From assembly GCA_907163375.1 (NCBI GenBank), contig CAJQUW010008927.1, positions 1-64,000 of the forward strand: a DNA stretch of 64,000 bases. Direction: 5' to 3'. Under the pieces are notes generated by a model. It was given only the letters and a program-made list of their open reading frames with translations. It ran no database searches and was not told the DNA's origin. Position 1 is the first letter of the stretch. Each line of letters opens with the position of its first letter. The position numbers and the translations under genes were made by a program. This stretch comes from Prostheceraeus crozeri. Its lineage: Eukaryota > Platyhelminthes > Polycladida > Euryleptidae. Shown piece by piece: positions 33,187-56,454 of this stretch.

Positions 33187-35440
33187 AGTAGTAAGTAAAA
33201 CTCCACTTCTGGACCGCGCAAGATGGCGGCCATCGCTGCGTCCCCCCCCCCTCTGGCACGGCAGAGTGTCGTGGTCGGCCGCCGTGGTGCTTCGTGTCTG
33301 AGTCCCCCCCCCCCTCTGCAACGACAGAGTGTGAGACTCGGGTGAGTTGGTCCGACCGCCTGGTTGACGTGGGCGACCGTCTAGGTTGACGTGGGCGACC
33401 GCCAGGATTAGTCTTGAGGCTATAGTGTGTGATGTTTTTGGTGCAATCTGCTGAATGTTGGGTTGTAAAATGGGTTGTTTCGAGTGGAAGGAGTGGTCGG
33501 ATGAGAAAACGGAGGTCAGATTCGGATTCAGCGTGAAATTCTGCATCGGTAGGGTGAGTTTCAAGGCAATCGGCGAGAAAAACTGGTTTTGGTGTGTTAG
33601 CCCCAACGAACGCAGGATCGGAAAAGAAAAACGAGTCCAATTCTCGTGAATTACGTGAAATTCATTGCATCGTAGTCAAGGCAATCGGCGAGAAAAAACT
33701 GTTTCTTCAAAATTTTGACATAGAATGTGGGACGTTTTGGTGTGTAGCGCCCAAACGAAGCATCGGATGAGAAAACGGAGTCCAGATTCGGAATCTACGT
33801 GAAATTTTGGGTTAGGAAGGATGTTTCCAGCGAAATCGGAGAGAAAAAATTTTCGGCTGACGTCCCCCCCCCCCTCTGGACAGCTTGCTTCGATTTTGGC
33901 TTCTAGTGGACGGATTTTGTCGTGCGATAGCTCGTTTGAAAGCTAAGAGTGAGACAAATTCAGTGAAACAATCGGCTTGTTCCTATCTGTCTTCGTTCAA
34001 AAGTTAGAGCGGTTACAAGATTTTAGGTCGGAGCTCGCTTACCTGAAAAAATCCTAAGTGTCAGAGTGACTTTGTATGGGTAAAATTTTGAAAATTTTCC
34101 AAAGTGTGGAATTTCGACCTGGGACCGTCACCAAAACATTTTTCATCAAATTTCGCTGACCCCCCCCCCCGACAACAATCTTCTAACTTTGGTTCTAGTG
34201 GACGGATTTTGTCTTACAGCTACTCGTTTGAAAGAGGAGAAAAAACTGCTCGACAACATTTTTTGTTGCGAGTCAATCGGACCAGCCGTTCACAAGTTAG
34301 AGCGGTTACAAGATTTTAGGTCGGAGCTCGCTCACCTGAAAAATCCTAAGTGTCAGAGTGACTTTGTATGGGTAAAAATTTGAAAATTTTCCAAAGTGTG
34401 GAATTTCGACCTGGGACCGTCACCAAAACATTTTTCATCAAATTTCACTGACCTCCCCCCCCCCCTCTGGACAGCTTGCTTCGATTTTGGCTTCTAGTGG
34501 ACGGATTTTGTCGTGCGATAGCTCGTTTGAAAGCTAAGAGTGAGACAAATTCAGTGAAACAATCGGCTTGTTCCTATCTGTCTTCGTTCAAAAGTTAGAG
34601 CGGTTACAAGATTTTAGGTCGGAGCTCGCTTACCTGAAAAAATCCTAAGTGTCAGAGTGACTTTGTATGGGTAAAATTTTGAAAATTTTCCAAAGTGTGG
34701 AATTTCGACCTGGGACCGTCACCAAAACATTTTTCATCAAATTTCGCTGACCCCCCCCCCCCGACAACAATCTTCTAACTTTGGTTCTAGTGGACGGATT
34801 TTGTCTTACAGCTACTCGTTTGAAAGAGGAGAAAAAACTGCTCGACAACATTTTTTGTTGCGAGTCAATCGGACCAGCCGTTCACAAGTTAGAGCGGTTA
34901 CAAGATTTTAGGTCGGAGCTCGCTCACCTGAAAAATCCTAAGTGTCAGAGTGACTTTGTATGGGTAAAAATTTGAAAATTTTCCAAAGTGTGGAATTTCG
35001 ACCTGGGACCGTCACCAAAACATTTTTCATCAAATTTCACTGACCTCCCCCCCCCCTCTGGACAGCTTGCTTCGATTTTGGCTTCTAGTGGACGGATTTT
35101 GTCGTGCGATAGCTCGTTTGAAAGCTAAGAGTGAGACAAATTCAGTGAAACAATCGGCTTGTTCCTATCTGTCTTCGTTCAAAAGTTAGAGCGGTTACAA
35201 GATTTTAGGTCGGAGCTCGCTTACCTGAAAAAATCCTAAGTGTCAGAGTGACTTTGTATGGGTAAAATTTTGAAAATTTTCCAAAGTGTGGAATTTCGAC
35301 CTGGGACCGTCACCAAAACATTTTTCATCAAATTTCGCTGACGTCCCCCCCCCCTCGTTCGGACAAAATTTCTTGAAACAAACTTTGGTAAAGGTCCCAG
35401 GTCAAAATTCGGAAGTTTTAAATTTTTCAAAATTTTCACC
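33187..35440. repeat. left-arm terminal G-tract repeat array
   Basis: C-runs of 7-13 occur at about 33243, 33304, 33865, 34160, 34454, 34751, 35047 and 35344. From 33.87 to 35.34 kb a ~591-bp unit repeats about 2.5 times. Each unit is made of two ~296-bp halves that differ after the C-run (CTCTGGACAGCTTGC versus GACAACAATCTTC). The terminal 50 bp hold GCGCAAGATGGCGGCCATC. All ORFs here are short shadows of the repeat. Confidence 0.85.
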
Positions 35441-35645
35441 ACACTGGAGCTCCCACACTTAGGAATTTTTTCACTTGTGGCATGTTACATGCACATGTGC
35501 TGACGGACCAACTTCCCGTGGTCATATGAGAATGGTTGAGGTGTCATATTGTAAAGAATGATGAGACAAATCGTTTGCAACAAACCGCATGTCGCTACGA
35601 TGAATACTTTCGGAGATAGAGCCATTTTAAGTTTTCTTCCGAGCA

Positions 35646-36240
35646 TATATAAACCCCCGACAACGCAAGTCTGATCACTTCATCGAAAGACGAGGTAAGC
35701 GACGGTCGTCGCTCTGAGCTCCCGATATCGGGTTGCAAAGGACTCTATCTTTTGAAGTAGGCAAGCTATCTTGCTACTTCAAAGTTTGTATGATAGAGTT
35801 TGATAGTGTCTTTACTACTGATAAAATTTTTTAAAAGTAGTATGAGTAGTAAAATGCGGAATTTTTTAAAAATTCTTAATTTTCACTTTTTTCAAAGTTT
35901 TAACATATAGACTAAGGTTTTCAAGTATCCTGAGTTCAAATCTGCTATCAGATTTGAAATTTAACTAAGTCTAAGGCAGCTTTGAGGGGTTAGATCCCAG
36001 CTACTGATCACTACCTTTGACTCGGCGTTCCTGTTACCACTTCGGGGCAGTGACAATGATGTCTTCAGCTGTAAAGAGCGGGTATCGGGGAAGATCTCTC
36101 ACTTCCCTAGTGATCGGTACAAGGCCTTCGGGCTGTCGACGGGATCGAGTGCCACTCACTACACTCTTTAGGAATATGACTGTACTACATGATTCCAAAC
36201 TTATACAAATTTCATTATCTTACAGCTAACGATAAATCAG
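35646..36240 (+). promoter_or_regulatory. early promoter, leader exon and leader intron (left arm)
   Basis: TATATAAA at 35646-35653 is followed by a short leader and a donor GAG/GTAAGC (GT at 35695). Candidate acceptors are CTTACAG (ending 36225) and AATCAG (ending 36240), the latter two bases before the ATG of the early coiled-coil gene. The arrangement is conserved in element L (about 10 percent diverged) and, in a shorter form, at 57473 in element R, which supports function. Confidence 0.65.
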
Positions 36241-36242
36241 GC

Positions 36243-37433
36243 ATGGCCAACGACAAAAATCGAAAGTATCATATCAAAATGTGTGTGTGCGGTCGTATAA
36301 ATCGCAGTGCGGACGCCAAGGCTCACGTCAAGAAGGCGGGCACCGGCCACATGATTGTCTTGAATAGGGTTGCGTGCGTGAAGTGTAGAGTGCTGAAGGG
36401 TGATGAGGATGAGGCGCGTTTCTACAGAGTGCATGCTGACTGTAGTGGTGGTTTAGTGACTGATTTGAGATTTACACAGTTGATTGTGGAAGAGAGGGAG
36501 CGAATGTTGGCGAATGTTGCGAATGTTGTTGAGAATGTTGTTGAGAATGTTGTTGAGAATGTTGTTGAGAATGATGAGTTGGCGAGAGCGGTTGCGTCGT
36601 TGGAGGGTGAGATTGAGCAGCGGAAGAGAGTGCTTGAGAGTGATGATGAGGATGATGTGGATTTAGATAGGGAGCGTGTGAGGAAGCGTGTGAGGAAGTT
36701 GAGCTCTTCGTCATCGGAGGTGTCCGACATCGTCATCACCGACCCCCCGAAGAGCTCATCTTCCCCAAAAGTGAAGAGTGGTGGGATTCGTGTGCAGTCG
36801 GCGAGGTGGTTGAAGGATGAAGAGAAGAGACATGTTTCGCAGCAGATGGCGCATGAGTTGTTAGTGAATAAGTTTGAGAGTTTGAAGAAAGTGAAGGATG
36901 AAGTTGTGAAGGAGTTGGATGAGTTGAAAAAGAAGGATTTGAAGTCGAAGGAGGTGGCGGATGAAAACATTAGAATGAGGCGTTGTGTGACTGATTTGAA
37001 GAATAAGACGCGAGAGTTGGAAGAGAAGAATGATGCGTGTGAGAAGAGGGCGAGTGCTGCGGAGAGAAGAATGAGAGATGCAGAGGCGAAGTTTGAGGAG
37101 ATGATGAAGGAGATGAGTGTGTTGAGAGCGAGGAATGTTGAGTTGGAGAGGACTGTGGCTCGGCGGGGTGATGAGAGGCAGGCGTGTGAGAAGTTGGAGC
37201 GCATGAGGGATGAGTGGGAACGTGTGAATGAGGATCGTTTGTTTGAGTTTCACATCCCTATTCGGGACAATCATTTGGCCGGCGAAGTATTGGTGAATAA
37301 AAATCTGGACGAATCGATTATTTGCTACAACGGTCATCCCACGAAAAAGTGTCTCCATGCCAGCCTGAGAATGCGCGGCCATCTCCATAAATTTTCGATT
37401 CGGAAACGCGCGAGACTACCTAAGGATGACTAA
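36243..37433 (+). CDS. early coiled-coil protein, 396 aa (left arm)
   Basis: ATG 36243 lies in a good context directly after a possible acceptor. N-terminal residues 14-67 hold paired cysteines (C14, C16, C45, C48, C67) and histidines, possibly a zinc-binding domain. A four-fold VEN(V) repeat encoded by a 12-bp tandem follows near residues 95-110. Next are an acidic run (ESDDEDDVDLD), a basic RKRVRK nuclear-signal candidate near 160, and a Ser-rich linker. A long coiled coil occupies about residues 215-345 (heptad-like Leu/Met with Glu/Lys). The compact C-terminal domain (CYNGHPTKKC, RMRGHLHKF) has Cys/His. The family is unknown to me, and the build suggests a nuclear regulatory or scaffold protein. 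It is intact in both palindrome arms but broken in element L. Confidence 0.75.
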   Translation: MANDKNRKYHIKMCVCGRINRSADAKAHVKKAGTGHMIVLNRVACVKCRVLKGDEDEARFYRVHADCSGGLVTDLRFTQLIVEERERMLANVANVVENVVENVVENVVENDELARAVASLEGEIEQRKRVLESDDEDDVDLDRERVRKRVRKLSSSSSEVSDIVITDPPKSSSSPKVKSGGIRVQSARWLKDEEKRHVSQQMAHELLVNKFESLKKVKDEVVKELDELKKKDLKSKEVADENIRMRRCVTDLKNKTRELEEKNDACEKRASAAERRMRDAEAKFEEMMKEMSVLRARNVELERTVARRGDERQACEKLERMRDEWERVNEDRLFEFHIPIRDNHLAGEVLVNKNLDESIICYNGHPTKKCLHASLRMRGHLHKFSIRKRARLPKDD

Positions 37434-37497: not shown

Positions 37498-37530
37498 ATC
37501 TTTGCCCGCCTTCACCACCCCATCAATTTA

Positions 37531-37674
37531 CTCCCGAGAACGAACCATCGGCTCTCTTAAGGGCCACCTAGGGGCAAGACATGATAGAACCTCCACGCGG
37601 TTTGCCCTGGGCAGTCTTCGGACTGGCGAATACTATCATTAAGTTGAATCTGCTATCAGTCAACTTGAACGTTG
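37531..37674 (+). promoter_or_regulatory. 144-bp upstream module, copy 1 (left arm)
   Basis: Starts CTCCCGAGAACGAACC and ends CAACTTGAACGTTG. It lies 17 bp upstream of TATATAAA (37691-37698) of the 88-aa gene and has the GCCACCTAGG variant. Confidence 0.8.
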
Positions 37675-37729
37675 CGTCGCATTAGAGGGGTATATAAACC
37701 ACTGCCTCTCATTTCATTTCATTTCAATC

Positions 37730-37996
37730 ATGCAGACGCCGAACAGTCAAGTCAGCTCTCCTCGCGGACCGCAGTTAAGGCCGCGAAATTTATTTGAGGA
37801 GTTCGTCAGGCTAGAGGAGCAAGACAGAGTTTTTAATAATCTTGCTCGGATTGGCAATCCGATGACAGCAACTGCTGTCAATCCAACGGAATGGCGCTAC
37901 ATTCCACTCTATACTCACATGCCAGTTAGTGTGGAAGTCGACAGTGCTACCAAAGAGAGAGTCTTTGACTCTCTCAGCAGAATTGGTAGGCTGTAG
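37730..37996 (+). CDS. small early-region protein, 88 aa (left arm)
   Basis: ATG 37730 lies 32 bp after TATATAAA. The sequence has a Pro/Ser/Gln-rich start, an acidic-basic helix (LFEEFVRLEEQDRVFNNL), TEWRYIPLYTHMPV and a C-terminal SATKERVFDSLSRIGRL. No known domain. The ORF is conserved in element L over its full length with no indel, which supports coding. The next 144-bp module begins about 10 bp after its stop, so 3-prime end and upstream control of the next gene are fused. Confidence 0.65.
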   Translation: MQTPNSQVSSPRGPQLRPRNLFEEFVRLEEQDRVFNNLARIGNPMTATAVNPTEWRYIPLYTHMPVSVEVDSATKERVFDSLSRIGRL

Positions 37997-38004
37997 GATG
38001 ACGA

Positions 38005-38147
38005 CTCCCGAGAACGAACCATCGGCTCTCTTAAGGGCCACCATGGGGCAAGACATGATAGAACCTCCTCGCGGTTTGCTCTGGGCAGTCTTCGGACTGG
38101 CGAATACTATCATTAAGTTGAATCTGCTATCAGTCAACTTGAACATT
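38005..38147 (+). promoter_or_regulatory. 144-bp upstream module, copy 2 (left arm)
   Basis: Carries GCCACCATGG at the centre, followed by an open frame of 45 codons (begins MGQDMIEPPRG). TATATAAG of the 84-aa gene follows at 38213-38220. Confidence 0.8.
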
Positions 38148-38260
38148 ATGCAGTCGATTGCTATCCCTGAAGCATTCTGATTCGCTGTTGAGCAATTCAT
38201 TGTTGAAAACCCTATATAAGCCAGAAGATTGTAGCGCTTCTCATTCAATTTGAAGTCACG

Positions 38261-38515: not shown

Positions 38516-38539
38516 TCAACTTAATTGACACCATTGACA

Positions 38540-38680
38540 CCGAGAACGAACCATCGGCTCTCTTAAGGGCCACCATGGGGCAAGACATGATAGAACCTCC
38601 TCGCGGTTTGCCCTGGGCAGTCTTCGGACTGGCGAATACTATCATTAAGTTGAATCTGCTATCAGTCAACTTGAACGTTG
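38540..38680 (+). promoter_or_regulatory. 144-bp module, copy 3 (left arm)
   Basis: Follows the 84-aa gene and again has GCCACCATGG and an open frame (about 50 codons). No TATA gene is directly downstream; the decayed repeat 38.69-39.36 kb follows instead. Confidence 0.75.
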
Positions 38681-39475: not shown

Positions 39476-40075
39476 ATGGCAGTAGCCGGTGAAGTAACGA
39501 TATCTACAACGTCAGCATCAACGTCAGCATCAACGTCAGCATCTATTTTCTTCCCATTGCTTCGGGATCGAGTACCTGCAATGGTGTATCGAGATATTCC
39601 CCTTTTCGCTGGGGATGTGATCCTATCAGATAAGATATCATGTGTGGTGGTCAAGCGGGCTGTGGTACAGACAGAGACTCACATATTTCCAACTACGATT
39701 GACACTTTTTATTTTACTAAATCACCTGTATATCGTATACATTCAAGTACGAATGACCCACCGGAGAAGCCACTATACATGGAACGAGATGTGCCTATGT
39801 ACGAAGGGGATGTAATTCTGGGGTACTCCCCTACAAGAATGATGATACGTCGTGCACCAGGATGGGTGGATGATGGAAGGTGGATGGGGGCGTATGTGGA
39901 AGTTGAACATCATTCAAAGCCACTCATGGACCCACCGTATGAGACGCAACGATTCCGTCTAGATGGTGAAGCATGGATTCGTGTCATTCCCAACGGATGG
40001 TACAGAGACATTGATGAAGAGAGAGGTGATTATAAGTCCTTTAGTGAAATAAGTGGAGAATTTGTATTTCAATGA
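39476..40075 (+). CDS. gene A: unknown protein with internal duplication, 199 aa (left arm)
   Basis: ATG 39476 lies 56 bp after TATATAAG. After a Thr/Ser/Ala repeat (STSASTSAST; 12-bp DNA repeats) the protein holds two copies of one motif: RDIPLFAGDVILSDKISCVVVKR (split: RDIPLFAGDVIL at ~39-50, CVVVKR after it) and RDVPMYEGDVIL with MMIRR at ~104-125. Between them is PTTIDTFYF, and later QRFRLDGEAWIRVI. Gene B is a paralogue with the same layout. The strand-rich pattern suggests two small beta domains. The family is unknown to me and shows no capsid or enzyme signature. An AATAAA follows about 30-40 bp after the stop. Confidence 0.75.
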   Translation: MAVAGEVTISTTSASTSASTSASIFFPLLRDRVPAMVYRDIPLFAGDVILSDKISCVVVKRAVVQTETHIFPTTIDTFYFTKSPVYRIHSSTNDPPEKPLYMERDVPMYEGDVILGYSPTRMMIRRAPGWVDDGRWMGAYVEVEHHSKPLMDPPYETQRFRLDGEAWIRVIPNGWYRDIDEERGDYKSFSEISGEFVFQ

Positions 40076-40234
40076 ACTTTTATGTATATATTGAATGAAC
40101 TTTTATTGAATAAACATACTTCATACATGTGATCATTTTCCTTTGAGTTATACTATAATGAATAGGATGGTATTAGAAGAAGATGGATATGGGTATAAAT
40201 AAGTTAAGTGAAAATAGATGGGAATATAATCATC

Positions 40235-40789
40235 ATGAGTGAGGTTCCAGAGTGTGAGGTTCCAGAGTGTGAGGTACGTTATCCAATACGTCATTGGAAA
40301 GGTAAATTTTGGCAATATCACCGTACCATTCCATTATTTCATGGAGACAAGATAATTTCAGAGACGAAGAACTGTGTAGTGATATCACGCCGTAAGATAG
40401 AATTGGAAAATGAAATAATTCCAACGTATATTGACACATTCTATTTTGAAGTAACACCGACATATCAGCATCCAATTACAACAACGGTGGAGAAACCGAA
40501 AGACTGTCTTTATTTTGAACGTGATTACATTCCAATGTATGAAGGAGATGTAGTTATATCATGGAATCCTACAGAAACATGTATTCGACGTTCTCCAGGT
40601 AGAAAGCGTGAAGATGGAGGAGGTTTGGCACGGGCTATGTATATAGTATATCAACATACTCCAGAAGTGTATAAACGACCGAAATTGACACGACGATTTC
40701 GTTTGGATATTGAGAAGAAGGTGTGGGTTCAGATTCTTCATACTGATACATTGACTGACATTGAATGGACGGGTGGACAAACGAGGTGA
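40235..40789 (+). CDS. gene B: paralogue of gene A, 184 aa (left arm)
   Basis: The frame is open from 40208, but the first ATG is 40235, after TATAAATA at 40194-40201. An exact repeat PECEVPECEV is followed by RTIPLFHGDKII..CVVISRR, PTYIDTFYFEVTPTY, ERDYIPMYEGDVVISW..CIRRSPG and TRRFRLDIEKKVWVQI. These align in order with gene A, so A and B arose by tandem duplication and then diverged strongly (roughly 35-40 percent identity by eye in the shared blocks). The divergence while keeping the GD motifs argues for functional proteins. Function is unknown. Confidence 0.75.
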   Translation: MSEVPECEVPECEVRYPIRHWKGKFWQYHRTIPLFHGDKIISETKNCVVISRRKIELENEIIPTYIDTFYFEVTPTYQHPITTTVEKPKDCLYFERDYIPMYEGDVVISWNPTETCIRRSPGRKREDGGGLARAMYIVYQHTPEVYKRPKLTRRFRLDIEKKVWVQILHTDTLTDIEWTGGQTR

Positions 40790-41171: not shown

Positions 41172-41218
41172 TGACTTTTGAAATCATTTACTTCATATTT
41201 TGACTTGAGCTAGTGAAC

Positions 41219-41716
41219 ATGCCCGACGTAACGATGATCCAACCTTTACGGATTCGCATTCCCGAAGTGTTAGTGCCAGAGAGCGACGAGGAAGACTGGC
41301 CAACTGATCTTCCGTCTGGATGGGGATCGTGGCCCGATTTGAGTGAATTGACTGATGAAGGACTTCCAGAGTTGGTGACGCCTACCCCGATGGACAATCT
41401 TCCTCCAAGGTTTTCACCAGACATTACACAGTTGGACAGATTTTTAAATTCACCATCTTCCAGTCGGACGAATTTTAGTGAAATGACGGATGAAGAGTGG
41501 GTGACGTACGAAAAGGAGAAGGAGAAGGAGAATAATCCACCTAACTCGAGGGCAGGATCTCCGGTGGTCCCATTGGGATTACGTATGCTTATCCCACAAT
41601 TGCCGCATCGACAGTTTCATGGACGCATTTCATCAGAATCAAATATACGACGTGAGGTGGATTTGGTGGATGAAGCGTTGGTGCATGTCATTGATATGAA
41701 CAGTGTTTTCTCATGA
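41219..41716 (+). CDS. gene D: acidic Pro/Ser-rich protein, 165 aa (left arm)
   Basis: The first ATG is 41219 (MPDVTMIQPL), 48 bp after TATATAAA; the frame upstream begins only with GTG. The protein is acidic and probably disordered (PESDEEDWPTDLP, LTDEGLPELVTPTP, MTDEEWVTYEKEKEKE), with a more hydrophobic C-terminal part (GLRMLIPQLPHRQFH, VDLVDEALVHVI). Acidic and aromatic clusters resemble viral transcription-activation or host-factor-binding regions, which is an inference only. A TTTACTTTCTCATGA repeat and an AATAAA (~41756) follow the stop. Confidence 0.7.
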   Translation: MPDVTMIQPLRIRIPEVLVPESDEEDWPTDLPSGWGSWPDLSELTDEGLPELVTPTPMDNLPPRFSPDITQLDRFLNSPSSSRTNFSEMTDEEWVTYEKEKEKENNPPNSRAGSPVVPLGLRMLIPQLPHRQFHGRISSESNIRREVDLVDEALVHVIDMNSVFS

Positions 41717-44840: not shown

Positions 44841-44907
44841 CTGACATGATAGAATTAAGCTTGACAAACGCGTTTTGTCAAGTTCATTTGATTCTATCAT
44901 GTCAGGA
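44839..44907. other. asymmetric palindrome apex (hairpin-like)
   Basis: The arms pair perfectly up to ATGATAGAAT/ATTCTATCAT. Inside lies an asymmetric loop (left TAAG, right TTCATTTG), then a 6-bp stem CTTGAC/GTCAAG (44860-44865, 44877-44882), then AAA opposite TTTT around CGCG. The local symmetry centre is shifted by 2 bp relative to the arms. Confidence 0.8.
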
Positions 44908-47541
44908 CTACACACAATTGATTTACAAAACATGCTTTGAATACTCATACGATGAAGTTCTTACTTTCATTTATTTCTAATGTACACACTGTTGAAACTT
45001 TATTTTCAACTTGTAAACTGTTGAAACTTTATTTTGTTTCTAACATATAAACAGCTAAAACTTTATTTCTAACGTACACACCGTTGAAACTTTATTTTTA
45101 ACTTGTAAACGGCTGAAACTTTATTTCTAACGCGATTCTATCATGTCAGGACTACACACATTTGATTTACAAAACATGCTTTGAATACTCATACGATGAA
45201 GTTTTTACTTTCATTTATTTCTAACGTACACACTGTTGAAACTTTATTTTTCAACTTGTAAACTGTTGAAACTTTATTTTGTTTCTAACATATAAACAGC
45301 TAAAACTTTATTTCTAACGTACACACTGTTAAAAGTTTATTTTAATCTGTAAACTGTTGAAACGATATTTTCATTTACAACTAGTAGAATGCTGAGTCTA
45401 ACTTGCAAACTAGTAAATCCTACGATCGTACTTTACAAACAGATAAAACTTTATTTCTAACGTAGACACTGTTAAAACTTTATTTTTCAACTTGTAAACG
45501 GTTGAAACTTTATTTCTAACGTACACACTATTGAAACTTTATTTTTAAATTGTAAACTGGTGAAACTTCATTTTATTTCTAACATACAAGCTGATAAAAC
45601 TTTATTCTTAACTTGTAAACTGGTGAAGCTTCATTTTATTTCTAACATAGAAACAGATAAAACTTTATTCTTAACATACGCACTATTGAAACATTAGTTT
45701 TAACTTGTAAACTATTGAAACTTTATTTTTAACTTGTTAACGGTTGAAACTTTGTTTTATGTCTAACATACAAACAGATAAAACTTTATTCTTAACTTGT
45801 AAACTGATGAACCTTCATTTTATTTCTAACATAGAAACAGATAGAACTTTATTCTTAACATACACACTATTGAAACTTTATTTTTAACGTGTTAACTATT
45901 GAAACTTTATTTTTAACCTGTAAACGGTTGAAACTTTGTTTTAATTCTAACATACAAGCAGATAAAATTTATTCTTAACTTGTAAACTGGCGAAACTTCA
46001 TTTTATTTCTAACATATAAACAGATAGAACTTTATTCTTAACGTACACAATGTTGAAACTTTATTTTTAACGCACAAAGCGCTTAAACTTTATTTCCATC
46101 ATACACACTATTGAAACTTTATTTTAATCTGAAACTTTATTTTTAACTTGTTAACGGTTGAAACTTTGTTTTATGTCTAACATACAAACAGATAAAACTC
46201 TATTATTAACTTGTAAACTGATGAAACTTCATTTTATTTCTAACATAGAAGCAGATAGAACTTTAATCTTAACATACACACTATTGAAACTTTATTTTAT
46301 TTTTAACATACAAACAGCTAAAACTTTATTTTATGTCTAACATACAAACAGATACAACTTTATTATTAACTTGTAAACTGATGAAACTTCATTTTATTTC
46401 TAACATAGAAGCAGATAGAACTTTATTCTTAACATACACACTATTGAAACTTTATTTTTAACGTGTTAACTATTGAAACTTTATTTTTAACTTGTATACG
46501 GTTGAAACCGGTTTTTTAATTCTAACATACAAACAGATAAAACTTTATTCTTAACATACACACTATTGAAACTTTATTTCTAACGTACACACTATTGAAA
46601 CTTCATTTTTAACTTGTAAACTGGTGAAACTTTATTTCATTTCTGACATACAAGCAGATAAAACTTTATTCTTAACTTGTAAACTGGTGAACCTTCATTT
46701 TTATTTCTAACATATAAACAGATAGAACTTTATTCTTAACATATACACTATTGAAACTTCATTTTTAACTTGTAAACGGTTGAAACTTTGTTTTAATTCT
46801 AACATACAAGCAGATAAAATTTATTCTTAACTTGTAAACTGGCGAAACTTCATTTTATTTCTAACATAGAAACAGATAAAACTTTATTCTTAACATACGC
46901 ACTATTGAAACATTAGTTTTAACTTGCAAACTATTGAAACTTTATTTTTAACTTGTTAACGGTTGAAACTTTGTTTTATTTCTAACATACAAACAGATAA
47001 AACTTTATTCTTAACTTGTAAACTGATGAACCTTCATTTTATTTCTAACATAGAAACAGATAGAACTTTATTCTTAACATACACACTATTGAAACTTTAT
47101 TTTTAACGTGTTAACTATTGAAACTTTATTTTTAACCTGTAAACGGTTGAAACTTTGTTTTAATTCTAACATACAAGCAGATAAAATTTATTCTTAACTT
47201 GTAAACTGGCGAAACTTCATTTTATTTCTAACATATAAACAGATAAAACTTTATTCTTAACATACGCACTATTGAAACATTAGTTTTAACTTGTAAACTA
47301 TTGAAACTTTATTTTTAACTTGTTAACCGTTGAAACTTTGTTTTATTTCTAACATACAAACAGATAAAACTTTATTCTTAACTTGTAAACTGATGAAACT
47401 TCATTTTATTTCTAACATACAAACAGATAGAACTTTATTCTTAACATACACACTATTGAATTTTTATTTTTAACGTGTAAACTATTGAAACTATATCTTT
47501 CATTTACAAATAATAGAACGCTTAGTCTAAATTGCAAACTA
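44906..47541. repeat. AATAAA-rich minisatellite (right arm)
   Basis: Mirror of the left-arm array. Here AATAAA reads on the minus strand, again the coding strand of the arm. Confidence 0.85.
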
Positions 47542-47548
47542 GTAAATC

Positions 47549-47716
47549 TTATTCGTCACCAAATCTATGCAGCAATGTAGGACCTGCACCTAGATCTCGA
47601 TGTGTCATTACTTTCATTACTTTATTAAGGACACGTGGTAAAATTGAAATGATAAGACCACCCCTCTGACGTCGTCTTCGTCTTCGTCTTCGTCTAGTAC
47701 GATATGGCATTGTCAT
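47549..47716 (-). CDS. Arg-rich core-like peptide, 55 aa (right arm)
   Basis: Mirror copy of the 55-aa peptide. Confidence 0.6.
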   Translation of the reverse strand: MTMPYRTRRRRRRRRRQRGGLIISILPRVLNKVMKVMTHRDLGAGPTLLHRFGDE

Positions 47717-47739
47717 AATAACATTCCATTCACTGTTAC

Positions 47740-47895
47740 TTAGCGCTTTCGCTTAATACGTCTAATGGCTTTCCTTGCTATATGTCGTGAAACACCCTTT
47801 GTAATAGTTCCTGCAAAATGTTTACCAAGCATTCCCGCTAGAGGTAAAAGAATACCCCCTCTCTGACGTCTTCGTCTTCGTCTATAACATGGCAT
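47740..47895 (-). CDS. Arg-rich core-like peptide, 51 aa (right arm)
   Basis: Mirror copy of the 51-aa peptide. Confidence 0.6.
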   Translation of the reverse strand: MPCYRRRRRRQRGGILLPLAGMLGKHFAGTITKGVSRHIARKAIRRIKRKR

Positions 47896-48029
47896 GATTC
47901 ATACAATCTGCTATGTATATGATTACTTAAACTTCTACATCCCATACCCTTTCATTCAAAAGAATCAAGGCTTACCATGTAAGTTTATTGAAGAAGCACA
48001 CACGAGAAAGTAAATCATGAGAAAGTAAA

Positions 48030-48527
48030 TCATGAGAAAACACTGTTCATATCAATGACATGCACCAACGCTTCATCCACCAAATCCACCTCACGTCGTA
48101 TATTTGATTCTGATGAAATGCGTCCATGAAACTGTCGATGCGGCAATTGTGGGATAAGCATACGTAATCCCAATGGGACCACCGGAGATCCTGCCCTCGA
48201 GTTAGGTGGATTATTCTCCTTCTCCTTCTCCTTTTCGTACGTCACCCACTCTTCATCCGTCATTTCACTAAAATTCGTCCGACTGGAAGATGGTGAATTT
48301 AAAAATCTGTCCAACTGTGTAATGTCTGGTGAAAACCTTGGAGGAAGATTGTCCATCGGGGTAGGCGTCACCAACTCTGGAAGTCCTTCATCAGTCAATT
48401 CACTCAAATCGGGCCACGATCCCCATCCAGACGGAAGATCAGTTGGCCAGTCTTCCTCGTCGCTCTCTGGCACTAACACTTCGGGAATGCGAATCCGTAA
48501 AGGTTGGATCATCGTTACGTCGGGCAT
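48030..48527 (-). CDS. gene D, 165 aa (right arm)
   Basis: Mirror copy with an identical protein. TATA at 48575-48582. Confidence 0.7.
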   Translation of the reverse strand: MPDVTMIQPLRIRIPEVLVPESDEEDWPTDLPSGWGSWPDLSELTDEGLPELVTPTPMDNLPPRFSPDITQLDRFLNSPSSSRTNFSEMTDEEWVTYEKEKEKENNPPNSRAGSPVVPLGLRMLIPQLPHRQFHGRISSESNIRREVDLVDEALVHVIDMNSVFS

Positions 48528-48624
48528 GTTCACTAGCTCAAGTCAAAATATGAAGTAAATGATTTCAAAAGTCATTTATATACAGTTTTTAGTGGATCGG
48601 GTCCTCTAAAAGGTATCAGGTCCT

Positions 48625-48864
48625 CTAAAAGGTATCGGGTCCTCTATCGGGTCCCTTCCACAATCCATCTCTCCAATAATTTGATTGTCGTTGATGACTC
48701 ACTATCGTCGCTTTCAGCACAAAGTCGCATGTGTCCTCACACTCTCTGATCTTCTCTGGATTCTTCGATTTATAGGCTCTCCTCTTATATCTTTCAATCA
48801 TTTGTTTGATGGTCTTCATCTCCTCACGCTGCCTTACTCTCAACTCTTCTCTTGTTTCTACCAT
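48625..48864 (-). CDS. gene C, 79 aa (right arm)
   Basis: Mirror copy with an identical protein. TATA at 48896-48903. Confidence 0.6.
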   Translation of the reverse strand: MVETREELRVRQREEMKTIKQMIERYKRRAYKSKNPEKIRECEDTCDFVLKATIVSHQRQSNYWRDGLWKGPDRGPDTF

Positions 48865-48956
48865 GATTATGATTGTGACACTCATTTCATCCACTCTTAT
48901 ATACATCTCTCAAAGGACCCGATCCCTTCATGGGTCCCCTTCAGGGGACCCTGAAA

Positions 48957-49511
48957 TCACCTCGTTTGTCCACCCGTCCATTCAATGTCAGTCAATGTAT
49001 CAGTATGAAGAATCTGAACCCACACCTTCTTCTCAATATCCAAACGAAATCGTCGTGTCAATTTCGGTCGTTTATACACTTCTGGAGTATGTTGATATAC
49101 TATATACATAGCCCGTGCCAAACCTCCTCCATCTTCACGCTTTCTACCTGGAGAACGTCGAATACATGTTTCTGTAGGATTCCATGATATAACTACATCT
49201 CCTTCATACATTGGAATGTAATCACGTTCAAAATAAAGACAGTCTTTCGGTTTCTCCACCGTTGTTGTAATTGGATGCTGATATGTCGGTGTTACTTCAA
49301 AATAGAATGTGTCAATATACGTTGGAATTATTTCATTTTCCAATTCTATCTTACGGCGTGATATCACTACACAGTTCTTCGTCTCTGAAATTATCTTGTC
49401 TCCATGAAATAATGGAATGGTACGGTGATATTGCCAAAATTTACCTTTCCAATGACGTATTGGATAACGTACCTCACACTCTGGAACCTCACACTCTGGA
49501 ACCTCACTCAT
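48957..49511 (-). CDS. gene B, 184 aa (right arm)
   Basis: Mirror copy with an identical protein. TATA at 49545-49552. Confidence 0.75.
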   Translation of the reverse strand: MSEVPECEVPECEVRYPIRHWKGKFWQYHRTIPLFHGDKIISETKNCVVISRRKIELENEIIPTYIDTFYFEVTPTYQHPITTTVEKPKDCLYFERDYIPMYEGDVVISWNPTETCIRRSPGRKREDGGGLARAMYIVYQHTPEVYKRPKLTRRFRLDIEKKVWVQILHTDTLTDIEWTGGQTR

Positions 49512-49670
49512 GATGATTATATTCCCATCTATTTTCACTTAACTTATTTATACCCATATCCATCTTCTTCTAATACCATCCTATTCATTATAGTATAACT
49601 CAAAGGAAAATGATCACATGTATGAAGTATGTTTATTCAATAAAAGTTCATTCAATATATACATAAAAGT

Positions 49671-50270
49671 TCATTGAAATACAAATTCTCCACTTATTTC
49701 ACTAAAGGACTTATAATCACCTCTCTCTTCATCAATGTCTCTGTACCATCCGTTGGGAATGACACGAATCCATGCTTCACCATCTAGACGGAATCGTTGC
49801 GTCTCATACGGTGGGTCCATGAGTGGCTTTGAATGATGTTCAACTTCCACATACGCCCCCATCCACCTTCCATCATCCACCCATCCTGGTGCACGACGTA
49901 TCATCATTCTTGTAGGGGAGTACCCCAGAATTACATCCCCTTCGTACATAGGCACATCTCGTTCCATGTATAGTGGCTTCTCCGGTGGGTCATTCGTACT
50001 TGAATGTATACGATATACAGGTGATTTAGTAAAATAAAAAGTGTCAATCGTAGTTGGAAATATGTGAGTCTCTGTCTGTACCACAGCCCGCTTGACCACC
50101 ACACATGATATCTTATCTGATAGGATCACATCCCCAGCGAAAAGGGGAATATCTCGATACACCATTGCAGGTACTCGATCCCGAAGCAATGGGAAGAAAA
50201 TAGATGCTGACGTTGATGCTGACGTTGATGCTGACGTTGTAGATATCGTTACTTCACCGGCTACTGCCAT
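49671..50270 (-). CDS. gene A, 199 aa (right arm)
   Basis: Mirror copy with an identical protein. TATA at 50326-50333. Confidence 0.75.
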   Translation of the reverse strand: MAVAGEVTISTTSASTSASTSASIFFPLLRDRVPAMVYRDIPLFAGDVILSDKISCVVVKRAVVQTETHIFPTTIDTFYFTKSPVYRIHSSTNDPPEKPLYMERDVPMYEGDVILGYSPTRMMIRRAPGWVDDGRWMGAYVEVEHHSKPLMDPPYETQRFRLDGEAWIRVIPNGWYRDIDEERGDYKSFSEISGEFVFQ

Positions 50271-50386
50271 ATTGTATCTGAGTAGTCTTCTTCAACGGTA
50301 TAATTCATCTACATTCAAACTCCTTCTTATATATTCTCTAAAGGGGCCCGACCCTTAGTAACGGGTCCCTTAGTTACGGGACCCGT

Positions 50387-51056
50387 TTGTAAATCTAAAA
50401 ACATTTCATATGGACGATGATGGTAGATAAAATAGTGTCAAATAAATTAAGATAGCTTACACTTCTGATACAGGGATAGCAATCGACTGCGATCCATGTG
50501 TAAAGAGCTTGTTAGACTATGGATGGGCTTAAGTGGATGATTTAACCATGTATACTTTTTCATTTGGAAATAGTAGCACGCTTAGTCTAACTTGTAAATC
50601 TAAAAACATTTCATATGGACGATGATGGTAGATAAAATAGTGTCAAATAAATTAAGATAGCTTACACTTCTGATACAGGGATAGCAATCGACTGCGATCC
50701 ATGTGTAAAGAGCTTGTTAGACTACGGAAGAGAGAAGTGTGTTATGTTGCGTGTGGCGCGTGAGTGTCCTCCCATTTCATTCCATTCATCAATTCATCTC
50801 ATTGATAGAGACAGGTAGAACTCATGGTTCTCATAACGTATGCAATGGAAAGTTTTAGGCAACCTTCGACAGTTGGCTAAATGTCGCCCTGGCGCGAATG
50901 CATACTACGTTGAGACAGAGGCAATCACTTGCAAACATGACGCAGAGAGGTTTAACAAGATTGACCATTGCCGAATGTCCCTTGCGGTATGCATAGCTAC
51001 GGGTTTCACCGCCGCCCTTTACAGGAACGCCCGTCGAAAGGAAGTATTACACCGAA
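50387..51056. repeat. early-region end repeat with tandem duplication (right arm)
   Basis: Mirror of 38690-39359. Confidence 0.7.
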
Positions 51057-51065
51057 CTTCATTTG

Positions 51066-51206
51066 CAACGTTCAAGTTGACTGATAGCAGATTCAACTTA
51101 ATGATAGTATTCGCCAGTCCGAAGACTGCCCAGGGCAAACCGCGAGGAGGTTCTATCATGTCTTGCCCCATGGTGGCCCTTAAGAGAGCCGATGGTTCGT
51201 TCTCGG
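51066..51206 (-). promoter_or_regulatory. 144-bp module, copy 3 (right arm)
   Basis: Mirror of 38540-38680. Confidence 0.75.
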
Positions 51207-51230
51207 TGTCAATGGTGTCAATTAAGTTGA

Positions 51231-51485
51231 CTATTGGCTTGAATAGTCAATAGGTATGACAGCTAGGTTGTCATAGACCCTATACCGCCGAGGTCGTACT
51301 GGTGCATCTGGCACCTTTCGGATGCGGGTGGTTTTAGGAGTCCACACCCCATCCGTCCAAATGATCTTCTTGATCTTCCCCTTCTTCTCATCCTCTTCAT
51401 CCCACTCGTCGAGGATGATGAAGTTGGGAATGCCGTTGTCTTCATCGGTGAAGACGGGAATGTTGTCGGCAGATGTCGCTTCCAT
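51231..51485 (-). CDS. small acidic/basic early protein, 84 aa (right arm)
   Basis: Mirror copy of the 84-aa gene with an identical protein. TATA at 51526-51533. Confidence 0.65.
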   Translation of the reverse strand: MEATSADNIPVFTDEDNGIPNFIILDEWDEEDEKKGKIKKIIWTDGVWTPKTTRIRKVPDAPVRPRRYRVYDNLAVIPIDYSSQ

Positions 51486-51598
51486 CGTGACTTCAAATTG
51501 AATGAGAAGCGCTACAATCTTCTGGCTTATATAGGGTTTTCAACAATGAATTGCTCAACAGCGAATCAGAATGCTTCAGGGATAGCAATCGACTGCAT

Positions 51599-51741
51599 AA
51601 TGTTCAAGTTGACTGATAGCAGATTCAACTTAATGATAGTATTCGCCAGTCCGAAGACTGCCCAGAGCAAACCGCGAGGAGGTTCTATCATGTCTTGCCC
51701 CATGGTGGCCCTTAAGAGAGCCGATGGTTCGTTCTCGGGAG
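51599..51741 (-). promoter_or_regulatory. 144-bp upstream module, copy 2 (right arm)
   Basis: Mirror of 38005-38147. Confidence 0.8.
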
Positions 51742-51749
51742 TCGTCATC

Positions 51750-52016
51750 CTACAGCCTACCAATTCTGCTGAGAGAGTCAAAGACTCTCTCTTTGGTAGC
51801 ACTGTCGACTTCCACACTAACTGGCATGTGAGTATAGAGTGGAATGTAGCGCCATTCCGTTGGATTGACAGCAGTTGCTGTCATCGGATTGCCAATCCGA
51901 GCAAGATTATTAAAAACTCTGTCTTGCTCCTCTAGCCTGACGAACTCCTCAAATAAATTTCGCGGCCTTAACTGCGGTCCGCGAGGAGAGCTGACTTGAC
52001 TGTTCGGCGTCTGCAT
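51750..52016 (-). CDS. small early-region protein, 88 aa (right arm)
   Basis: Mirror copy of the 88-aa gene with an identical protein. TATA at 52048-52055. Confidence 0.65.
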   Translation of the reverse strand: MQTPNSQVSSPRGPQLRPRNLFEEFVRLEEQDRVFNNLARIGNPMTATAVNPTEWRYIPLYTHMPVSVEVDSATKERVFDSLSRIGRL

Positions 52017-52071
52017 GATTGAAATGAAATGAAATGAGAGGCAGTGGTTTATATACCCCTCTAATGCGACG

Positions 52072-52215
52072 CAACGTTCAAGTTGACTGATAGCAGATTC
52101 AACTTAATGATAGTATTCGCCAGTCCGAAGACTGCCCAGGGCAAACCGCGTGGAGGTTCTATCATGTCTTGCCCCTAGGTGGCCCTTAAGAGAGCCGATG
52201 GTTCGTTCTCGGGAG
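52072..52215 (-). promoter_or_regulatory. 144-bp upstream module, copy 1 (right arm)
   Basis: Mirror of 37531-37674, TAGG variant. Confidence 0.8.
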
Positions 52216-52312
52216 TAAATTGATGGGGTGGTGAAGGCGGGCAAAGATCTGCAATGAAAATGATATGTATTAGAATAGGATATACTATCTTATTTGCTTT
52301 TCACTTACCAAG

Positions 52313-53503
52313 TTAGTCATCCTTAGGTAGTCTCGCGCGTTTCCGAATCGAAAATTTATGGAGATGGCCGCGCATTCTCAGGCTGGCATGGAGACACTTT
52401 TTCGTGGGATGACCGTTGTAGCAAATAATCGATTCGTCCAGATTTTTATTCACCAATACTTCGCCGGCCAAATGATTGTCCCGAATAGGGATGTGAAACT
52501 CAAACAAACGATCCTCATTCACACGTTCCCACTCATCCCTCATGCGCTCCAACTTCTCACACGCCTGCCTCTCATCACCCCGCCGAGCCACAGTCCTCTC
52601 CAACTCAACATTCCTCGCTCTCAACACACTCATCTCCTTCATCATCTCCTCAAACTTCGCCTCTGCATCTCTCATTCTTCTCTCCGCAGCACTCGCCCTC
52701 TTCTCACACGCATCATTCTTCTCTTCCAACTCTCGCGTCTTATTCTTCAAATCAGTCACACAACGCCTCATTCTAATGTTTTCATCCGCCACCTCCTTCG
52801 ACTTCAAATCCTTCTTTTTCAACTCATCCAACTCCTTCACAACTTCATCCTTCACTTTCTTCAAACTCTCAAACTTATTCACTAACAACTCATGCGCCAT
52901 CTGCTGCGAAACATGTCTCTTCTCTTCATCCTTCAACCACCTCGCCGACTGCACACGAATCCCACCACTCTTCACTTTTGGGGAAGATGAGCTCTTCGGG
53001 GGGTCGGTGATGACGATGTCGGACACCTCCGATGACGAAGAGCTCAACTTCCTCACACGCTTCCTCACACGCTCCCTATCTAAATCCACATCATCCTCAT
53101 CATCACTCTCAAGCACTCTCTTCCGCTGCTCAATCTCACCCTCCAACGACGCAACCGCTCTCGCCAACTCATCATTCTCAACAACATTCTCAACAACATT
53201 CTCAACAACATTCTCAACAACATTCGCAACATTCGCCAACATTCGCTCCCTCTCTTCCACAATCAACTGTGTAAATCTCAAATCAGTCACTAAACCACCA
53301 CTACAGTCAGCATGCACTCTGTAGAAACGCGCCTCATCCTCATCACCCTTCAGCACTCTACACTTCACGCACGCAACCCTATTCAAGACAATCATGTGGC
53401 CGGTGCCCGCCTTCTTGACGTGAGCCTTGGCGTCCGCACTGCGATTTATACGACCGCACACACACATTTTGATATGATACTTTCGATTTTTGTCGTTGGC
53501 CAT
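52313..53503 (-). CDS. early coiled-coil protein, 396 aa (right arm)
   Basis: Mirror copy encoding the same protein residue for residue. ATG at 53503. Transcription is directed towards the palindrome centre, as for all genes of the arms. Confidence 0.75.
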   Translation of the reverse strand: MANDKNRKYHIKMCVCGRINRSADAKAHVKKAGTGHMIVLNRVACVKCRVLKGDEDEARFYRVHADCSGGLVTDLRFTQLIVEERERMLANVANVVENVVENVVENVVENDELARAVASLEGEIEQRKRVLESDDEDDVDLDRERVRKRVRKLSSSSSEVSDIVITDPPKSSSSPKVKSGGIRVQSARWLKDEEKRHVSQQMAHELLVNKFESLKKVKDEVVKELDELKKKDLKSKEVADENIRMRRCVTDLKNKTRELEEKNDACEKRASAAERRMRDAEAKFEEMMKEMSVLRARNVELERTVARRGDERQACEKLERMRDEWERVNEDRLFEFHIPIRDNHLAGEVLVNKNLDESIICYNGHPTKKCLHASLRMRGHLHKFSIRKRARLPKDD

Positions 53504-53505
53504 GC

Positions 53506-54100
53506 CTGATTTATCGTTAGCTGTAAGATAATGAAATTTGTATAAGTTTGGAATCATGTAGTACAGTCATATTCCTAAAGAGTGTAGTGAGTGGCACTCG
53601 ATCCCGTCGACAGCCCGAAGGCCTTGTACCGATCACTAGGGAAGTGAGAGATCTTCCCCGATACCCGCTCTTTACAGCTGAAGACATCATTGTCACTGCC
53701 CCGAAGTGGTAACAGGAACGCCGAGTCAAAGGTAGTGATCAGTAGCTGGGATCTAACCCCTCAAAGCTGCCTTAGACTTAGTTAAATTTCAAATCTGATA
53801 GCAGATTTGAACTCAGGATACTTGAAAACCTTAGTCTATATGTTAAAACTTTGAAAAAAGTGAAAATTAAGAATTTTTAAAAAATTCCGCATTTTACTAC
53901 TCATACTACTTTTAAAAAATTTTATCAGTAGTAAAGACACTATCAAACTCTATCATACAAACTTTGAAGTAGCAAGATAGCTTGCCTACTTCAAAAGATA
54001 GAGTCCTTTGCAACCCGATATCGGGAGCTCAGAGCGACGACCGTCGCTTACCTCGTCTTTCGATGAAGTGATCAGACTTGCGTTGTCGGGGGTTTATATA
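53506..54100 (-). promoter_or_regulatory. early promoter, leader exon and leader intron (right arm)
   Basis: Mirror copy: TATA at 54093-54100, donor near 54051, acceptors near 53521 and 53506. Confidence 0.65.
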
Positions 54101-54305
54101 TGCTCGGAAGAAAACTTAAAATGGCTCTATCTCCGAAAGTATTCATCGTAGCGACATGCGGTTTGTTGCAAACGATTTGTCTCATCATTCTTTACAATAT
54201 GACACCTCAACCATTCTCATATGACCACGGGAAGTTGGTCCGTCAGCACATGTGCATGTAACATGCCACAAGTGAAAAAATTCCTAAGTGTGGGAGCTCC
54301 AGTGT

Positions 54306-56454
54306 GGTGAAAATTTTGAAAAATTTAAAACTTCCGAATTTTGACCTGGGACCTTTACCAAAGTTTGTTTCAAGAAATTTTGTCCGAACGAGGGGGGGGG
54401 GACGTCAGCGAAATTTGATGAAAAATGTTTTGGTGACGGTCCCAGGTCGAAATTCCACACTTTGGAAAATTTTCAAAATTTTACCCATACAAAGTCACTC
54501 TGACACTTAGGATTTTTTCAGGTAAGCGAGCTCCGACCTAAAATCTTGTAACCGCTCTAACTTTTGAACGAAGACAGATAGGAACAAGCCGATTGTTTCA
54601 CTGAATTTGTCTCACTCTTAGCTTTCAAACGAGCTATCGCACGACAAAATCCGTCCACTAGAAGCCAAAATCGAAGCAAGCTGTCCAGAGGGGGGGGGGA
54701 GGTCAGTGAAATTTGATGAAAAATGTTTTGGTGACGGTCCCAGGTCGAAATTCCACACTTTGGAAAATTTTCAAATTTTTACCCATACAAAGTCACTCTG
54801 ACACTTAGGATTTTTCAGGTGAGCGAGCTCCGACCTAAAATCTTGTAACCGCTCTAACTTGTGAACGGCTGGTCCGATTGACTCGCAACAAAAAATGTTG
54901 TCGAGCAGTTTTTTCTCCTCTTTCAAACGAGTAGCTGTAAGACAAAATCCGTCCACTAGAACCAAAGTTAGAAGATTGTTGTCGGGGGGGGGGGGGTCAG
55001 CGAAATTTGATGAAAAATGTTTTGGTGACGGTCCCAGGTCGAAATTCCACACTTTGGAAAATTTTCAAAATTTTACCCATACAAAGTCACTCTGACACTT
55101 AGGATTTTTTCAGGTAAGCGAGCTCCGACCTAAAATCTTGTAACCGCTCTAACTTTTGAACGAAGACAGATAGGAACAAGCCGATTGTTTCACTGAATTT
55201 GTCTCACTCTTAGCTTTCAAACGAGCTATCGCACGACAAAATCCGTCCACTAGAAGCCAAAATCGAAGCAAGCTGTCCAGAGGGGGGGGGGAGGTCAGTG
55301 AAATTTGATGAAAAATGTTTTGGTGACGGTCCCAGGTCGAAATTCCACACTTTGGAAAATTTTCAAATTTTTACCCATACAAAGTCACTCTGACACTTAG
55401 GATTTTTCAGGTGAGCGAGCTCCGACCTAAAATCTTGTAACCGCTCTAACTTGTGAACGGCTGGTCCGATTGACTCGCAACAAAAAATGTTGTCGAGCAG
55501 TTTTTTCTCCTCTTTCAAACGAGTAGCTGTAAGACAAAATCCGTCCACTAGAACCAAAGTTAGAAGATTGTTGTCGGGGGGGGGGGTCAGCGAAATTTGA
55601 TGAAAAATGTTTTGGTGACGGTCCCAGGTCGAAATTCCACACTTTGGAAAATTTTCAAAATTTTACCCATACAAAGTCACTCTGACACTTAGGATTTTTT
55701 CAGGTAAGCGAGCTCCGACCTAAAATCTTGTAACCGCTCTAACTTTTGAACGAAGACAGATAGGAACAAGCCGATTGTTTCACTGAATTTGTCTCACTCT
55801 TAGCTTTCAAACGAGCTATCGCACGACAAAATCCGTCCACTAGAAGCCAAAATCGAAGCAAGCTGTCCAGAGGGGGGGGGGGGACGTCAGCCGAAAATTT
55901 TTTCTCTCCGATTTCGCTGGAAACATCCTTCCTAACCCAAAATTTCACGTAGATTCCGAATCTGGACTCCGTTTTCTCATCCGATGCTTCGTTTGGGCGC
56001 TACACACCAAAACGTCCCACATTCTATGTCAAAATTTTGAAGAAACAGTTTTTCAAACAGTTTTTCTCGCCGATTGCCTTGAAACTCACCCTACCGATGC
56101 AGAATTTCACGCTGAATCCGAATCTGACCTCCGTTTTCTCATCCGACCACTCCTTCCACTCGAAACAACCCATTTTACAACCCAACATTCAGCAGATTGC
56201 ACCAAAAACATCACACACTATAGCCTCAAGACTAATCCTGGCGGTCGCCCACGTCAACCTAGACGGTCGCCCACGTCAACCAGGCGGTCGGACCAACTCA
56301 CCCGAGTCTCACACTCTGTCGTTGCAGAGGGGGGGGGACTCAGACACGAAGCACCACGGCGGCCGACCACGACACTCTGCCGTGCCAGAGGGGGGGGGGA
56401 CGCAGCGATGGCCGCCATCTTGCGCGGTCCAGAAGTGGAGTTTTACTTACTACT
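54306..56454. repeat. right-arm terminal G-tract repeat array
   Basis: Mirror of the left-arm array, about 105 bp shorter. One G-run has 13 G where the left arm has 12 C and another has 10 where the left has 11, so the arms are not digital copies. Confidence 0.85.

Follow-up and report, generated by a model that had tools for sequence, protein, structure and literature searches.

The first 64,000 bases (hereafter the window) of contig CAJQUW010008927.1, a 122,317-base contig in the 2.05-Gb assembly GCA_907163375.1 of the polyclad flatworm Prostheceraeus crozeri, contain a giant palindrome at 33187-56454, here termed element P. P is a genuine and recent insertion of a multicopy family of elements, the members of which are probably non-autonomous Polinton/Maverick derivatives, inverted dimers of one Polinton end that would have been generated by fold-back of a replicating strand, renewed through a hairpin and supplied with enzymes by a helper element. 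A preliminary description of the window had reported a near-perfect palindrome with 11.6-kb arms and exact inverse ends, flanked on both sides by GCGGTC, and had proposed that it entered the genome as one unit. These statements were borne out by the analyses reported here. The nesting of P in the tip of a second palindrome, its multicopy state and its lack of Polinton core genes go beyond that description.

Direct reading placed the tips of P at AGTAGTAAG, which begins at 33187, and CTTACTACT, which finishes at 56454, each adjoined by one GCGGTC. In a BLAST self-comparison of the window, 33654-56111 and its reverse complement aligned at 99.7% over 22,488 columns, and 10,105 base pairs, counted outward from the edges of the central loop, are uninterrupted and perfectly complementary. 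When P is split at 44873, the left arm measures 11,687 bp and the right arm 11,581 bp. Because the arms are unequal in length, a symmetry scan without gaps around the centre of P gave just 32%, and gapped alignment was required. In the gapped alignment the complete set of arm differences consists of a 104-bp repeat copy, two adjacent substitutions, four poly-C runs of unequal length and the 35 bp at the centre. The 104-bp site is present as a single copy in element C, the palindrome that surrounds P, and represents a change in the copy number of a repeat. All homopolymers of seven or more bases in the P arms are poly-C and lie within the outer 2.2 kb, so that the absence of length differences further inward carries little weight.

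Clear links exist between the ends of P and those of Polintons. Termini of the (AGT)n type (AGTAGTAA) were found at P, at C, at A', a conventional Polinton that adjoins C, and at nine further copies of the P family. Duplications of 6 bp flank P (GCGGTC), C (TTCCTC), A' (GTCCAT) and all nine further copies. The 20-bp tip pattern has four occurrences in the window, compared to 0.01 expected from shuffles; chance was considered as an explanation and rejected. The Polinton-type ends and duplication length noted in the preliminary description agree with those of vertebrate Mavericks, for which a published survey gives (AGT)2 ends, 6-bp duplications, terminal inverted repeats (TIRs) of 46-1447 bp (mean 402) and sizes of 12.7-24.6 kb (PMC8097293). 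P thus shares its termini, duplication length and size range with Polintons/Mavericks, and related elements with a protein-primed-type family B DNA polymerase (PolB) and an rve integrase lie on the same contig. It differs in being an inverted repeat from end to end, since Polinton TIRs measure a few hundred bp to about 1.4 kb and the arms of P 11.6 kb, and in that no polymerase, rve integrase, capsid or packaging ATPase gene was recognised among its arm open reading frames (ORFs) using Pfam and PHROGs.

P is inserted near the left end of element C, after the first 96 bp of its tip. C extends from 33091 to contig position 76346, resumes at 56461 after P and has the left copy of its duplication at 33085-33090. 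C is itself a giant palindrome: contig positions 66924-74000 are the inverse of 57008-64000 at 98.4-99.4% identity, with one 85-bp interruption. Its arms have diverged by 0.6-1.6%, and its centre, a 55-nt unpaired loop at 65617-65671, is unlike that of P. Because C is palindromic, an empty site for P is provided by the tip of its other arm. When the two flanks of P are joined at a single GCGGTC, 395 of 399 aligned positions agree with this uninterrupted tip, which is the arrangement that the preliminary description had anticipated for an empty site. Entry of the whole palindrome as one event is thus supported by the GCGGTC duplication, by this empty site and by the perfect duplications of the nine further copies.

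These further copies emerged from a search of the assembly with the 199-aa protein encoded in each arm of P, which yielded 633 candidates; the 150 scored matches are distributed over 105 contigs. Exactly two matches were found on 45 of the 105 contigs, and all 45 pairs are convergent, with the first match on the plus strand, the second on the minus strand and 7.3-12.6 kb between them. The 60 remaining contigs have one match each. Contigs with a single match undercount the palindromes, because C4720, the sole long contig of this kind that was examined, proved palindromic, its second gene copy lying outside the 150 scored matches. In C4720, 16508-17895 is a partly GC-rich, low-complexity stretch unlike the rest of the family and is possibly assembly noise. 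Sequences of both ends were fetched for 10 of the convergent pairs; C9732 ran off its contig, which left nine copies. All nine measure 21.8-24.0 kb and have perfect, mutually different 6-bp duplications (TACATG, TACAAG, TGAGCC, ACTGCA, AGCCAT, CTTCTT, GGCGTG, GCCACA, CACTTG), from which it follows that the palindrome integrates as a whole, repeatedly. At least one palindrome type has spread. For C12697 and C13299 there were two candidate right ends 3 bp apart, of which the one with a matching duplication was chosen, the other being mismatched. These nine pairs are established as different insertion sites, and allelic contigs are possible among the remainder of the 45. An exact 18-mer taken from the P variant detected a tip in 1 of 20 end stretches, owing to tip variation among copies; the tips were recovered using BLAST and a shorter end motif. 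A search of the genome with 314 bp of the P tip gave no match, probably since common words are skipped. The possibility that P represents two separate head-to-head insertions was rejected: one duplication spans both arms, and the same arrangement is present on 45 contigs.

The two arms of a copy mostly resemble each other more than they resemble the arms of other copies. Within a copy, left and right tips are 97.8-100% identical, reaching at least 99.8% in 8 of 10 copies (P included; two right tips comprise just 108 and 184 bp). Between copies, the left tips have 89.5-99.8% identity, a range that overlaps that within copies. A 3.6-kb interior segment around the 199-aa gene was compared in P and the eight copies for which both arms were at hand. 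The arms were identical in five of these nine copies and differed by no substitution and one indel in a sixth, whereas none of the 36 between-copy pairs was identical; the mean number of substitutions was 2.2 within and 23.9 between copies. C2634 is separated from every other copy by 38-79 substitutions and 24-50 indels, yet its own arms are identical. This contrast indicates that one arm has normally been copied from the other after the copies had diverged, and that the arms were not independently inherited, three of the nine copies being exceptions.

An alternative is that fold-back reads from the library or errors in the assembly graph made an ordinary Polinton look palindromic. The arms of P are almost without substitutions, their poly-C length differences resemble sequencing noise, and 6 of the 10 single-match contigs of known size finish before the partner could appear, as would be expected if assemblers break at palindromes. 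However, such an artefact does not account for the exclusively convergent orientation of the pairs on 45 contigs, nine of them confirmed as different sites, for nine different perfect duplications out of nine, for the empty site, for the diverged arms of C or for the identical arms of the otherwise distant C2634. No way was seen in which an artefact of assembly could have created the family pattern. This explanation is thus largely refuted and was judged to be highly improbable for P.

It is also improbable that P became palindromic in place, in that a normal Polinton inserted and one of its ends was later replaced, through gene conversion or break repair, by a copy of the opposite end. Apart from the loop, the differences between the P arms fall in the outer 1.6 kb, as if the far tip were original, but this pattern is weak given that long homopolymers are confined to the outer 2.2 kb. 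At the 104-bp site the arms differ in the copy number of a repeat. The centre of P also recurs at five other loci, all with different duplications, which implies that a ready-made palindrome moved. Expansion in place may nevertheless be the origin of some individual copies.

The middles of eight other copies were fetched, and that of C4444 lay outside its stretch. Five of the eight copies have the imperfect hairpin found at the centre of P (z -6.2); over about 550 bp their identity is 97-100%, and they differ in the few bases of the loop. C3127 and C12856 possess the same loop in opposite orientations. The centres of C12726 and C13299 are other than that of P, the latter having an 18-nt loop, so that the family has more than one centre. 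A centre that is incompletely paired, common to P and five of the eight fetched copies and placed beside AT-rich tandem repeats, might be taken for a functional hairpin telomere, as in poxviruses, in which case the one-ended hairpin would be the normal form of the element and the integrated palindrome its concatemer junction form. This is unlikely, as the quite different centres of C, C12726 and C13299 argue that no single sequence is needed, and no resolvase was found among the arm ORFs scanned.

The junction of C12726 points to the way in which such palindromes may form. It matches the unfolded C4444 up to AAAGTTT and then continues as the complement of the sequence preceding AAACTTT, with a 22-nt loop, as would be expected if a 7-bp inverted repeat had primed a fold-back. 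The evidence for a short inverted repeat that remains unfolded in a parent comes from this one junction, C12726 compared to C4444, and does not extend to P's own centre. Priming by fold-back at such short repeats is established in other systems: inverted repeats of 3-15 bp are present at fold-back junctions in yeast (PMC10622511), and repeats of 2-8 bp at 13 of 21 sequenced junctions in humans (PMC3907307).

In the proposed mechanism, the displaced strand of protein-primed, strand-displacement replication would fold back at a short inverted repeat and prime its own copying. This would yield a dimer whose two ends carry the same origin, and such dimers would be formed repeatedly. A single strand of the dimer could then fold along its full length into a hairpin that is open at one end only. 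Copying past the loop would renew the palindrome and equalise its arms, the loop being the sole place where asymmetry survives. Renewal of this kind would explain why the arms are equal and why the unpaired loop remains asymmetric. A helper Polinton would provide polymerase and integrase in trans, the integrase joining both tips to the target. More tentatively, and with slightly more doubt than confidence on our part, the data may define a class of self-perpetuating palindromic elements, namely Polinton satellites with conserved cargo genes and an inward AATAAA array at the centre, which replicate as one-ended hairpins and have their second arm rewritten in each cycle.

Several observations weigh against this combination of fold-back, hairpin renewal and helper supply. 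In the interior segment, the arms of three of the nine copies differ, by 7 substitutions and 4 indels, 2 and 2, and 11 and 3, respectively. The 450-bp tips of P are 98.4% alike, with the 104-bp difference partly inside them, whereas P and C12833 are 99.5% alike. One between-copy pair differs by no substitution and one indel, and another by one substitution and no indel. The differing copies and the tips of P imply that renewal is imperfect or that recombinants or assembly mixtures are present. Neither a terminal protein nor a conventional parent with the P gene set (414-199-193-167) was found. Finally, the central AATAAA-rich array is common to C and P and was not seen in the one 4.1-kb stretch of A' examined (4 and 3 AATAAA), and purely random end-duplication does not predict a central array without a counterpart in A'. 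The copies with differing arms are C2918, C5509 and C6699, for which exchange between palindromes or assembly mixing is possible.

Each arm of P contains an array of about five 298-bp subterminal repeats, ORFs of 414, 199, 193 and 167 aa that are all directed towards the centre, and an AT-rich tandem array (Table 1). The substitution pattern of the 414-aa ORF resembles that of a functional protein gene: compared to a broken copy at 5.2-6.3 kb, 20, 24 and 78 differences were observed at codon positions 1, 2 and 3, respectively. Among 8000 candidates scored, its homologues were P0001 and P0002, one of near full length with 69-71% identity and one partial with 94-96%. A distant homologue of 407 aa is encoded in A' (26% identity over 410 columns, E 2e-18), and no match was found in prokaryote contigs. 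The 193-aa ORF is a paralogue of the 199-aa ORF (42% over 150 columns), for which the protein collection returned no homologue (454 candidates, 0 at E 0.001). For the P arm ORFs, no Pfam family scored above the cut-off and PHROGs gave no match, with weak PHROGs matches elsewhere; PDB searches returned nothing significant, Rfam gave no match, and protein and pattern scans gave no match in viral contigs. Since a polymerase ORF is present in C and none was found in the P arms, P is regarded as a derivative and not as an autonomous Polinton. The very long, tandem-repeat-rich inverted repeats recall Foldback-type transposons (FB/Galileo-like), and P could in principle be such a cut-and-paste element, unrelated to Polinton replication. 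We assign a very low probability to this reading, because the tips and 6-bp duplications are shared with the conventional A' and the polymerase-bearing C, and no transposase was found among the arm ORFs scanned.

In the P array, AATAAA occurs 66 times on the inward strand and 0 times on the opposite strand, compared to 8.5 (sd 2.8, largest 17) in 300 runs of first-order resampling. The array of C is also strand-biased, with 24 to 0 on the left and 1 to 13 on the right. The combination of convergent genes and AATAAA arrays suggests that transcription is halted before the centre. Read-through across the centre would yield long double-stranded RNA, of 11 kb, which the array could prevent.

A' (contig C7422, 77632-104585) is non-palindromic, has a length of about 27 kb and possesses terminal repeats of about 1 kb. 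Inward from its right end, it contains the 407-aa homologue of the 414-aa gene, a 162-aa ORF similar to the 164-aa ORF of C, and the polymerase. Given this gene order, the P and C arms match the end of a conventional element at which the polymerase lies. A stretch containing reverse-transcriptase-like ORFs (judged by eye) splits the polymerase gene of A', and A' also has DNA homologous to the rve integrase of A, a partial Polinton that extends from 15942 down to about 3445 and is cut short at about 7674. The integrase of A, with rve and a chromodomain at 9469-10689, is a firm assignment. Based on position and motif only, we take 11426-12460 to be ATPase-like and 7687-8709 to be capsid-like, neither having a firm PDB or Pfam match. 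At about 7674, A is joined to B, a piece that resembles 34.9-39.2 kb of P and is without the P tip.

The polymerase of C is an open 1245-aa ORF in the left arm and is broken in the right arm. Its identification as a polymerase is based on its relatives, a motif and a shared domain. It has 612 relatives, and PF03175 (DNA polymerase type B) was found in 14 of the 120 listed; Pfam gave no polymerase match on the 1245-aa ORF itself. The GDTDS motif is invariant in 18 aligned polymerase sequences, all 18 of which have Endonuclease_7. Eighteen relatives of 27-36% identity are in contigs labelled bacterial or archaeal, and the longest inverted match in any of these contigs was 268 bp. The C polymerase is a possible helper. 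The presence of polymerase sequences in both arms of C suggests that the portion of the Polinton gene set carried can vary from one palindrome to another. The Polinton-type polymerase contigs filed as bacterial or archaeal are probably eukaryotic or viral and wrongly binned.

The preliminary description knew of no Polinton that is inverted repeat throughout, and none was found among the titles listed in the literature searches made here; most subscription papers lay outside these searches, so novelty is unproven. In a survey of Polinton-like viruses (PLVs), elements with TIRs of 100 bp-8 kb were retained (PMC12220804), a filter that would have removed P, and for Oxyrrhis PLVs, TIRs of 232-858 bp are given for three elements (PMC12721341). 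Adeno-associated virus (AAV) snapback genomes are described as self-complementary duplications of one genome end that are symmetric or looped, replicated by a helper and dimeric as duplexes, and double-stranded RNA from the dimers has been proposed (PMC8235507). P resembles them in the inverted duplication of one end and, on the reading preferred here, in its dependence on a helper. They are packaged parvovirus DNA of far smaller size, whereas the P family is chromosomal, with 6-bp duplications and Polinton ends. Among known systems, they offer the best functional parallel to the P family. Incomplete adenovirus genomes with a duplicated left end are another parallel, being protein-primed linear DNA with symmetric inverted duplications of one end; these are transient defective particles, whereas the P family is integrated. 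Non-autonomous DNA transposons similar to miniature inverted-repeat transposable elements keep their ends, have lost their enzymes and depend on a helper. They arise by internal deletion, in contrast to the end-duplication that gives the P family palindromes of 22-24 kb, which have ORFs of their own. The yeast and human fold-back inverted duplications share with P a short inverted repeat at the centre, a loop spacer and a hairpin that becomes a dimer, but are chromosomal accidents (PMC10622511, PMC3907307), whereas the P family is mobile and propagates its palindrome.

The P family would represent a eukaryotic, chromosomal counterpart of viral snapback genomes. To our knowledge, Polinton replication has been argued mainly from the protein-primed polymerase and the termini, without observed intermediates. 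Integrated inverted dimers may offer a natural record of this replication, in which junctions mark the sites of fold-back and arm identity marks the copying of arms. Near-perfect palindromes of 22-24 kb are usually considered unstable, but here they occupy many places in one genome assembly. At a practical level, elements of this type break assemblies and can pass for artefacts.

Table 1. Coordinates of P, of the surrounding element C and of their features in the window
Feature	Position	Strand	Remarks
Element P, giant palindrome, 23,268 bp	33187..56454	.	Ends read directly, BLAST, arm alignment
Target site duplication GCGGTC, left copy, 6 bp	33181..33186	+	Direct reading
Target site duplication GCGGTC, right copy, 6 bp	56455..56460	+	Direct reading
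Left arm of P to central loop	33187..44855	+	Inner 10,105 bp paired perfectly with right arm
Right arm of P, central loop outward	44891..56454	-	
Centre of P, 35-nt imperfect hairpin loop	44856..44890	.	
Extra 104-bp repeat copy between direct repeats	33589..33692	+	Left arm of P only
Subterminal array, about five repeats of about 298 bp with poly-C runs	33848..35356	+	Mirror copy 54390-55881
414-aa coiled-coil/Cys-rich ORF, left arm	36189..37433	+	
414-aa ORF, right arm	52313..53557	-	
199-aa ORF, left arm	39476..40075	+	
199-aa ORF, right arm	49671..50270	-	
193-aa ORF, left arm	40208..40789	+	
193-aa ORF, right arm	48957..49538	-	
167-aa acidic ORF, left arm	41213..41716	+	
167-aa ORF, right arm	48030..48533	-	
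AT-rich tandem array, AATAAA-rich	42246..44855	+	Mirror 44891-47500
Tip of C, left of P	33091..33186	+	
C continued	56461..64000	+	Extends to contig 76346, past the window
164-aa ORF of C	59093..59587	-	Counterpart in A'
Family B DNA polymerase-type ORF of C, 1245 aa	59918..63655	+	With Endonuclease_7 domain

Several further observations were made on the contig. In P, 37528-39359 and its mirror, which separate the 414-aa gene from the gene that follows, contain tandem repeats of about 140 bp and about 205 bp. These repeats are common to P, B, C and, in part, A', and the minus-strand ORFs within them look like by-products. Two further plus-strand ORFs are located at 191-1843, of which 1286-1843 has a weak PHROGs terminase match (E 0.0003) and is perhaps a fragment of a viral-type ATPase. 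Just beyond the end of A, 16965-21086 is a Gypsy-type retrotransposon with long terminal repeats of 146 bp that are 99.3% identical. Smaller self-inverse stretches at 30034-30500 (85%) and 23670-23839 (81%) are perhaps small fold-back elements. At contig positions 112673-122317, another element starts with AGTAGTAA and is followed by a long array of subterminal repeats of about 485 bp that continues to near the contig end.

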